Source: DASVDK01 sp036562265 [NCBI: Thermodesulfobacteriota bacterium] (lineage in GTDB: Bacteria; DASVDK01). From it: a stretch of DNA of 11,879 nucleotides. The notes under the pieces were generated by a model. It saw nothing but the letters and a program-made list of their open reading frames with translations. It made no database searches and was not told the origin of the DNA. This document shows positions 8,552 through 10,937 of the stretch, piece by piece (position 1 is the first letter of the stretch; each line of letters starts with the position of its first letter). Position numbers and translations under genes: made by a program. Location: contig DATCKS010000315.1 of assembly GCA_036562265.1 (NCBI GenBank), positions 1-11,879 of the forward strand, given 5' to 3'.

Positions 8552-8559
<8 letters not shown>
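7432..8559 (+). CDS. murG: Lipid II synthase: undecaprenyl-PP-MurNAc-pentapeptide GlcNAc transferase MurG
   Basis: Peripheral inner-membrane glycosyltransferase (GT28 family, GT-B fold) that adds GlcNAc from UDP-GlcNAc to lipid I, making lipid II on the cytoplasmic face. 375 aa, normal length. Motifs: glycine loop [17 protein letters not shown] (6-22); GTRRGIEAR at 37-45; [12 protein letters not shown] at 97-108; [13 protein letters not shown] at 122-134; TGNPIR at 162-167; [14 protein letters not shown] at 186-199; HQTG at 220-223; [27 protein letters not shown] (249-275), containing the donor-binding region; and [14 protein letters not shown] at 286-299. The start ATG overlaps the ftsW stop (ATGA). 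The 3' end overlaps murC by 8 bases. The open frame continuing upstream to 6400 is an artefact of high GC within ftsW. Confidence 0.97.
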
Positions 8560-9933
<1,374 letters not shown>

Positions 9934-9937
<4 letters not shown>

Positions 9938-10059
9938 GCCGTACGAGGCCAGGCGCCACCGGTGGGTGGGGTCCGGGGGCCGCAGGCCCCCGGTTGAGCG
10001 GAGGCCAGGCTCTGCCTGGCCGGAGCGGAAGGTGGCGCCGACGGGGAGGCGCGGCGTGA
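9934..10059 (+). CDS. Possible 41-codon bridging reading frame between murC and ftsQ
   Basis: A small open frame starting [11 protein letters not shown] and ending RWRRRGGAA. Its GTG overlaps the murC stop as GTGA (9934-9937), with AGGAGG at 9921-9926 seven nt upstream. Its TGA at 10057-10059 overlaps the ftsQ GTG at 10056, again GTGA. It would therefore carry ribosomes from murC to ftsQ in the same way as the other quadruplet overlaps in this operon. The peptide is Gly/Arg/Pro-rich with no recognisable domain and is encoded across hairpin DNA, so a functional product is doubtful. Its first three codons match the start of ftsQ in the first two residues because of the 13-bp direct repeat. It may be only a coupling device or chance, since stops are rare at this GC content. 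Confidence 0.3.
9952..10039. repeat. 88-bp hairpin-rich palindromic element in the murC-ftsQ spacer (REP/MITE-like)
   Basis: The ends form a perfect 9-bp inverted repeat: GGCGCCACC at 9952-9960 and GGTGGCGCC at 10031-10039. Inside are two perfect hairpins: a 9-bp stem CCGGGGGCC/GGCCCCCGG with loop GCA (9973-9993), and an 8-bp stem GGCCAGGC/GCCTGGCC with loop TCT (10003-10021). The heptamer GAGCGGA flanks the second hairpin on both sides (9996-10002 and 10023-10029). No transposase or known family is recognised. It resembles short non-coding palindromic repeats such as REP or MITE elements. Neither hairpin is followed by a T-run, so an intrinsic terminator is unlikely. A role in RNA processing or stability is possible but not shown. 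Confidence 0.6.
10043..10049 (+). promoter_or_regulatory. Shine-Dalgarno site deciding the ftsQ start
   Basis: GGGGAGG ends 6 nt before the GTG at 10056. It favours that start over the in-frame GTG (10065), TTG (10068) and ATG (10071) codons further down. It lies downstream of the outer stem of the hairpin element, so it should stay accessible. Confidence 0.6.
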
Positions 10060-10063
10060 GCCG
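10051..10063 (+). repeat. 13-bp direct repeat, copy 2 (ftsQ start)
   Basis: Identical to 9929-9941 and includes the ftsQ GTG in the GTGA context. The repeat places a copy of the murC-stop/ftsQ-start sequence at each end of the spacer. Confidence 0.75.
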
Positions 10064-10937
10064 CGTGTTGATGACCCAGCGAGCCGTGCGCCGCGCCCGG
10101 CGGTCGACGGTGCGGCGCGGGCTGGCGCTCGGCGCGGCCGCCGGCCTCGCGGCGGTGATCGTGGCGGTCGGCACGGCGCGCTGGCTGTCGACGCTTCCGG
10201 CGTTCGCGATCGAGGAGGTCGACGTGCGCTTCACGCGGCCGGCGCGGCACCTCACGCGGCAGGCGGTCCTCGAGCTTGCGCGGGTGACCCCCGGCGCGTC
10301 GCTCCTCGCGCTCGACCTCGGCCTCGTGGCGGAGCGCGTGGAGGCGCATCCCTGGGTCGGCCGGGTGGTGGCGCGCCGCGAGCTCCCCTCGCGGCTCGTG
10401 CTCGAGGTGACCGAGCGGCGCGCGGCGCTCCTCGTCCAGCTCGACCGGCTCTACTTCGCCGACGCGTCGGGCCGGCTCATCAAGCCGGTCGAGCACGGAG
10501 AGGAGACCGACCTTCCGGTGGTCACCGGACTCAGCGCGCAGGCCGTCGCGACCGACCCGTCCGGGACCGCGGCGCGTCTGGTCGAGGCGCTCGGCGTCCT
10601 CGACCTGGCCGACGCGCGGCTGCCGATCCGGGTCTCGGAACTGCACGTCGACCCGGTCCGCGGGTTCGTGCTGCGCACCGCGGCGGAGCGGACCTCCGCG
10701 GGCGGCCGGCTGACGATCGTTCTCGGGGACGGACCCTTCGGGCCCAAGCTCGAGCGCGCCGTTCGGGTCCTCGCCTACCTCGCGGCCGCCGGCGAGGCGG
10801 CCGAGCGGATCGACCTCACCCTCGGGCATCGGGCCGTGGTGAAGACCCGCTCGGAGGGCCGGACGATGGCGAGGTCGGGCGCGAGGGCCGAGGGGCCGCG
10901 GTCCACCGAGACCTCCGGAGGGGGACACGAGCTGTGA
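10056..10937 (+). CDS. ftsQ: Cell division protein FtsQ (POTRA-domain divisome protein)
   Basis: Bitopic inner-membrane divisome protein that links early cytoplasmic and late periplasmic division proteins. From the GTG at 10056 it is 293 aa. Layout: short basic cytoplasmic N-terminus (QRAVRRARRSTVRRG, about 8-22); one transmembrane helix (about 23-44); POTRA domain from FAIEEVDVRFTRPARHL to LVLEVTERRA (about 50-123), including the HPWVGRVVARRELPSRL stretch conserved in FtsQ; FtsQ-type beta domain with LYFADASGRLIKPV (132-145) and LPVVTGL (153-159). The last 25 or so residues are a polar Gly/Ser-rich tail. Start choice rests on GGGGAGG 6 nt upstream and on the preserved GTGA context; ATG at 10071 (288 aa) is the alternative. 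The stop overlaps ftsA (GTGA). Sequence is divergent, as usual for FtsQ, but position and domain order agree. Confidence 0.92.
   Translation: MSRVLMTQRAVRRARRSTVRRGLALGAAAGLAAVIVAVGTARWLSTLPAFAIEEVDVRFTRPARHLTRQAVLELARVTPGASLLALDLGLVAERVEAHPWVGRVVARRELPSRLVLEVTERRAALLVQLDRLYFADASGRLIKPVEHGEETDLPVVTGLSAQAVATDPSGTAARLVEALGVLDLADARLPIRVSELHVDPVRGFVLRTAAERTSAGGRLTIVLGDGPFGPKLERAVRVLAYLAAAGEAAERIDLTLGHRAVVKTRSEGRTMARSGARAEGPRSTETSGGGHEL

Follow-up and report, generated by a model that had tools for sequence, protein, structure and literature searches.

A REP sequence between malE and malF stabilises the upstream message, and in MITEs the terminal inverted repeats adjoin direct repeats. According to two published accounts, REP sequences lie mostly downstream of genes and are plausibly transcribed (PMC3733652), and REPINs are REP doublets that form hairpins, a clover form being mentioned (PMC3116915). 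The dcw cluster is counted among the most conserved bacterial gene clusters; its content varies, and murB and ddlB are missing from the cluster in some groups (PMC8871954). Stop-start coupling is almost lost once the gap between two genes reaches about 20 nt (PMC10666635). In gal, when initiation at a cistron junction fails, Rho terminates transcription, and the message carries a hairpin at its 3' end (PMC9239205).

Here, we describe a palindromic element between murC and ftsQ in the dcw cluster of a Thermodesulfobacteriota bacterium, carried on a stretch of 11,879 nt (the window). The element resembles REP sequences and REPINs in its short small-loop hairpins, which are extragenic and two close together (PMC3733652, PMC3116915); stems of 9 bp and 8 bp with 3-nt loops fall within the 6-13 bp stems and small loops given for REP (PMC3733652). 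Unlike REP, the element consists of two unlike hairpins inside a closing stem. The GTAG tag of REP is absent from both strands of 9942-10050, and although a CGTC (10040-10043, minus strand) directly adjoins the outer arm, it lacks the stem and loop described for CGTC families. With MITEs the element shares inverted repeats, no evident coding capacity, a size within 70-300 bp and direct repeats nearby, but the terminal inverted repeats of MITEs are given as 15-30 bp and those here measure 9 bp (PMC3733652). In addition, the inverted repeats here are not next to the direct repeats, and neither a transposase nor a second copy of the element was seen. Rickettsia palindromic elements, as outlined in the same source (PMC3733652), are comparable in being palindromic units of a length that keeps the reading frame open; in contrast to them, the present element lies between genes rather than within one, and its in-frame state may be due to chance. 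Strong GC-rich hairpins also recall intrinsic terminators, as do look-alikes located mostly between convergent genes in one genome (G171, see below), but the element has no T-run (a scan of 9700-10300 found no hairpin followed by one) and lies inside an operon-like cluster. Taken together, the defining features of REP and MITEs failed where tested, and the element is ordinary in kind, a palindromic intercistronic element.

Structure of the murC-ftsQ spacer

The window has a G + C content of 0.744 and carries, all on the plus strand, the end of ftsI, murE, murF, mraY, murD, ftsW, murG, murC, ftsQ and the start of ftsA. MurC and FtsQ were named by Pfam, and the other genes through their translations and tblastn matches to dcw loci. 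The murC stop (9935-9937) and the ftsQ GTG (10056-10058) enclose a spacer at 9938-10055, so the 118-nt gap reported in a preliminary description of this DNA is correct, as is its statement that the genes at the remaining junctions in the window either overlap or lie no more than 13 nt apart. Four-base ATGA/GTGA overlaps occur at 713, 2221, 6209, 7432 and 10934, murG and murC overlap by 8 nt, and the gaps flanking mraY measure 1 and 13 nt. The same description had noted identical 13-mers that flank the spacer, as well as inverted repeats of 9 bp lying 10-11 nt further in; both were recovered exactly (Table 1), the 13-mer being GCGGCGTGAGCCG and the distances 10 nt on the left and 11 nt on the right. 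A scan for promoter or terminator consensus at the spacer was negative.

Table 1. Features at the murC-ftsQ junction, in window positions
Feature	Position	Strand	Basis
murC, upstream neighbour	8552..9937	+	Mur ligase Pfam domains; sequence
Shine-Dalgarno-like AAGGAGG within murC end	9920-9926	+	sequence
13-mer direct repeat, copy 1, with murC stop in GTGA	9929..9941	+	exact sequence match
41-codon ORF, GTGA overlap with murC and ftsQ	9934..10059	+	codon composition not gene-like
88-nt cloverleaf: outer 9-bp inverted repeat enclosing two hairpins	9952..10039	+	fold and rare architecture
Outer inverted repeat, left arm GGCGCCACC	9952..9960	+	sequence
Hairpin 1: perfect 9-bp stem, GCA loop	9973..9993	+	sequence; look-alikes in other genomes
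Hairpin 2: perfect 8-bp stem, TCT loop	10003..10021	+	sequence
Outer inverted repeat, right arm GGTGGCGCC	10031..10039	+	sequence
Shine-Dalgarno-like GGGGAGG, 6 nt ahead of ftsQ GTG	10043..10049	+	sequence
13-mer direct repeat, copy 2, with ftsQ start in GTGA	10051..10063	+	exact sequence match
ftsQ, downstream neighbour	10056..10937	+	POTRA_1 E 7.3e-11

As RNA, the cloverleaf is predicted to fold into a closed three-way junction around the two perfect hairpins. The predicted energy is -59.4 kcal/mol, whereas shuffled sequences average -48.5 (z -3.30, 0 of 200 shuffles). When the flanks are included (9929-10063), the best RNA fold does without the outer stem and stands out less from the shuffles (z -2.53, 4 of 200), and the minus-strand DNA fold gave z -2.71 (3 of 200 shuffles). 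The architecture, scored as two perfect hairpins of at least 8 bp enclosed within 120 bp by a 9-bp outer repeat, was absent from 300 shuffled windows. A single case turned up in 86 other loci with a G + C content above 0.66, which total 633,129 bases; some of these loci overlap, leaving about nine tenths of the 40-mers distinct. That sole other cloverleaf among the loci tested, at L175:1220-1302, is unrelated in sequence. Single hairpins of at least 8 bp are not special alone, as 11 are present in the window, most of them within genes; hairpin pairs within 30 nt are rarer, with one in the window and three in a set of 30 GC-rich loci that amounts to 200,296 bases. The fold predicted for the 88 nt is far from random, and the structure is confirmed as real at the level of a predicted fold. 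None of the 4227 Rfam families reached its gathering score in the window with covariance models. The compact palindromic element of the preliminary description is present and its fold exceeds chance; its insertion with target duplication is a possibility only.

The direct repeats extend slightly beyond the 13-mers, with 15 of 16 bases identical when the pair is widened to 9926/10048. Exact 13-mer pairs at most 150 bp apart were found at three places in the window, the murC-ftsQ junction included, and gave 4 counts against a mean of 0.87 in 60 shuffles. When 36 GTGA gene-end sites were compared with 145 GTGA start-like sites from GC-rich loci (the window's own sites included, some loci overlapping), 2 of the 5220 pairs had a shared run of at least 13 through the GTGA. 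The in-register match is therefore unusual, at most about 4 in 10,000, but the site was chosen after the match had been seen, and we regard the figure as suggestive. Any TGA stop that follows a G yields GTGA, and in this genome the motif at the murC end therefore counts for little.

The junction in other genomes

In concatenated trees, the window was placed beside Desulfuromonadales on a long branch, with a support of 0.87 in one tree. The nearest MurC was that of a Nitrospirae bin (69%), the nearest mraY that of G166 (71.5%), whose class consists of one genome, and the best FtsQ match reached 38-39%. No close relative was found, and MurC and FtsQ searches in further groups gave nothing nearer; two of the FtsQ searches covered almost identical genome sets.

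The gene following murC was surveyed in 85 loci (L001-L080, L227, L228 and L230-L232; not among them were L229, which lies on the opposite strand, and L081-L129, which are shorter). Six were set aside as their contigs end too soon after murC, leaving 79 informative loci. murB followed murC in 62 of these, including L059 and L076, where it lies 0.8-1.0 kb downstream; 12 had a direct murC-ftsQ joint, lacking murB and with space for one gene only before ftsA, and the remaining five were other cases. Pfam confirmed MurB in all four loci tested and FtsQ in all six, and the further murB calls were made by tblastn. Within the window's own tree clade, murC is followed by murB in L013, L024 and L036 and by ddl, not murB, in L005 and L028 (both among the five other cases), and the contig of L037 ends too soon after murC to be read. 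The window itself has no murB, any murB similarity in it or in the spacer being at noise level only. The ancestral state was thus probably murC-murB(-ddl)-ftsQ rather than a GTGA overlap, and the spacer would stand where murB or ddl once stood, most likely through loss. A GTGA overlap of murC and ftsQ as the original state, as first proposed, is accordingly unlikely.

In 10 of the 12 loci without murB, the next possible start lies at most 25 nt beyond the murC stop; in L042 and L075, it is 110 and 109 nt away, respectively. The spacers of these two contain no hairpin of at least 7 bp, indicating that a spacer at a murB-less joint does not need such structure. In L006, L025, L038 and L040, all of distant lineages, murC runs directly into ftsQ and the two genes overlap by 1 to 4 nt, the overlap being 4 nt in L006, L025 and L038. 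Joints of the empty-site type asked for in the preliminary description therefore exist, but only in distant lineages.

Two of the surveyed loci carry tandemly repeated spacers: L042:7396-7505, from a Desulfosarcina bin, is a 110-nt spacer of short tandem units, GGCGTAAG-like and then ACCAGAG-like, and L063:7402-7541, from an acidobacterial bin, is a 140-nt spacer 3' of murC with GGGCAAA-type tandem units.

Searches for related sequences

No long match to the element was found in 195, 395 and 95 genomes of three phyla, with few candidates scored per genome, so diverged copies could be missed. In the 195 genomes, from the phylum of G009 (L023), 96 genomes gave weak DNA hits at E <=0.01, the best of 46 bits at query positions 77-120; these are scattered short GC-rich stretches and were treated as noise rather than as copies of the element. 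The 395 genomes from the phylum of G010 (L024) yielded three short hits in two genomes, and the 95 from the phylum of G003 (L003, Rokuibacteriota) none at E 1e-4, an empty answer that shows little. Plasmids and phages gave only 28-nt partial hits to the element, and no exact hairpin 2 was present in viral contigs.

Hairpin 1 preceded by a GGTCC lead, in comparison, was matched 19 times in a set of 326 genomes, each strand being counted, so that three sites enter twice. These matches fall in 7 genomes, against 5 matches in 3 genomes for a reversed control pattern, and the hairpin 1 pattern also matched 60 viral-contig stretches. Ten of the 19 matches were in G171 (loci L212 and L218-L226). By eye, another, unlike hairpin follows downstream at six of these 10 sites, and a CCGCCGGAGG-like tail is present at six; with a rough filter for gene-like ORFs, nine lie outside such ORFs and seven between convergent ones. 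In placement, the G171 copies are closer to bidirectional terminators than to operon spacers. In their own right, the GGTCC-led sites of G171 are possibly an undescribed REP-like terminator family. The look-alikes show a recurrent kind of GC-rich hairpin, which may have arisen by convergence rather than descent, and in the searches made the sequence outside hairpin 1 has no convincing relative.

The outer repeat, searched with a gap of 55-85 nt, had more than 120 viral matches, and 103 distinct sites examined in the loci each contain at most one inner hairpin of at least 6 bp. The outer repeat alone is therefore not diagnostic. Separately, the viral-labelled loci L160, L180, L183, L185, L187, L191, L202 and L206 have TATCCCGGGGGTCCGGGGGC-type hairpins in common; some of these contigs are about 14 kb long and may be gene transfer agents.

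Origin and possible role of the element

The reading that we prefer, although tentatively and at somewhat less than an even chance, is that a REP-like palindromic element occupies the vacated place of murB and uncouples ftsQ from murC in the mRNA. In its favour are the closed fold and its rare architecture, the murB or ddl that follows murC in most loci and the lack of murB in the window, the base composition of the spacer frames, which differs from that of the genes, the recurrence of hairpin 1 with its GGTCC lead in G171, and the published findings on coupling and on gal. Against it, the complete element is known from a single copy, the fold is weaker with flanks, the sequence outside hairpin 1 has no convincing relative in the searches made, the copies in G171 lie mostly between convergent genes, and the spacers of L042 and L075 are of similar length but have no such hairpins. 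An alternative hypothesis, which we consider rather unlikely, is that a mobile palindromic element was inserted into a murC/ftsQ GTGA overlap and duplicated 13 bp of its target. The exact 13-mers in register with stop and start, the low chance estimated from the GTGA site pairs and the 4-nt joints of L006, L025 and L038 argue for such an event; however, the inverted repeats lie inside the direct repeats rather than at them, the window contains exact 13-mer pairs at two further places, the genomes searched (few candidates each) yielded no second copy, and the usual neighbour of murC is murB, not ftsQ. Insertion with target duplication is therefore a possible origin, partly supported but unproven. 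It is also conceivable, though unlikely, that the spacer is a deletion scar, i.e., a rearranged leftover or filler remaining after the loss of murB and ddl, with GTG 9934 as a fossil murB start. In relatives such as L013, L023 and L227, the murC stop and the first start available to murB share a few bases, and AAGGAGG stands 7 nt upstream of GTG 9934, as at live starts in the window. A scar of this kind would, however, leave the ordered cloverleaf unexplained, murB similarity does not rise above noise, and recombination between the 13-mers should have reduced the two copies to one.

The other alternatives assume that the spacer is translated, and base composition bears on all of them. In the nine window genes measured, the third-position G + C content is 0.94-0.98 and the second-position content 0.40-0.56, whereas the second-position content in all three spacer frames is 0.72-0.91. 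If ftsQ started at GTG 9966, the spacer would encode a disordered Arg/Pro/Gly tail of FtsQ; we hold this to be very unlikely. The frame is open from that GTG, its third-position content is 0.90, and the length before POTRA would then be about that of L006, L038 and L228, but the second-position content is 0.80 over this short stretch against 0.55 in ftsQ, two perfect hairpins fall within one short stretch, and by eye no Shine-Dalgarno-like site lies near 9966, whereas GTG 10056 has GGGGAGG. A slim chance, in our judgement, attaches to the idea that the 41-codon ORF, from GTG 9934 to TGA 10059, is translated as a bridging leader and relays ribosomes from murC to ftsQ through its two GTGA overlaps. 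Frame and overlap are exact at both ends and both GTGs (9934 and 10056) are preceded by Shine-Dalgarno-like sites; against this, the ORF has a third-position content of only 0.71 and a second-position content of 0.91 (short stretch), it has no Pfam match, and by our estimate roughly one such insert in five would have a fitting stop-free frame. Neither the ORF nor the ftsQ extension resembles a normal gene here, the short length limiting both tests. Least probable of all is a combined scenario, in which the cloverleaf filled the vacated murB place and keeps the ORF open, a noncoding palindrome having turned into a translated coupling relay.

Under the preferred reading of a REP-like element in the vacated murB place, murB (and ddl) would have been lost from the murC-ftsQ position in this lineage, and the element would have arrived or formed there free of coding selection, its arrival being conceivable by transposition, strand slippage or capture. 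Once in the dcw transcript, it would break stop-start coupling between murC and ftsQ, and the uncoupled ftsQ would start from its own ribosome site, GGGGAGG. As in other operons, murC-side messages may have a 3' end at the hairpins, produced by Rho or by RNase processing. By analogy with the published findings on coupling and on gal, the spacer should uncouple ftsQ and offer a stable structure at the murC-side 3' end. A structured spacer where murB is missing would be a case of an operon joint rebuilt after the departure of a gene, and it offers a test of whether palindromic elements, rather than clean overlaps, settle at such joints and shift the MurC/FtsQ ratio.
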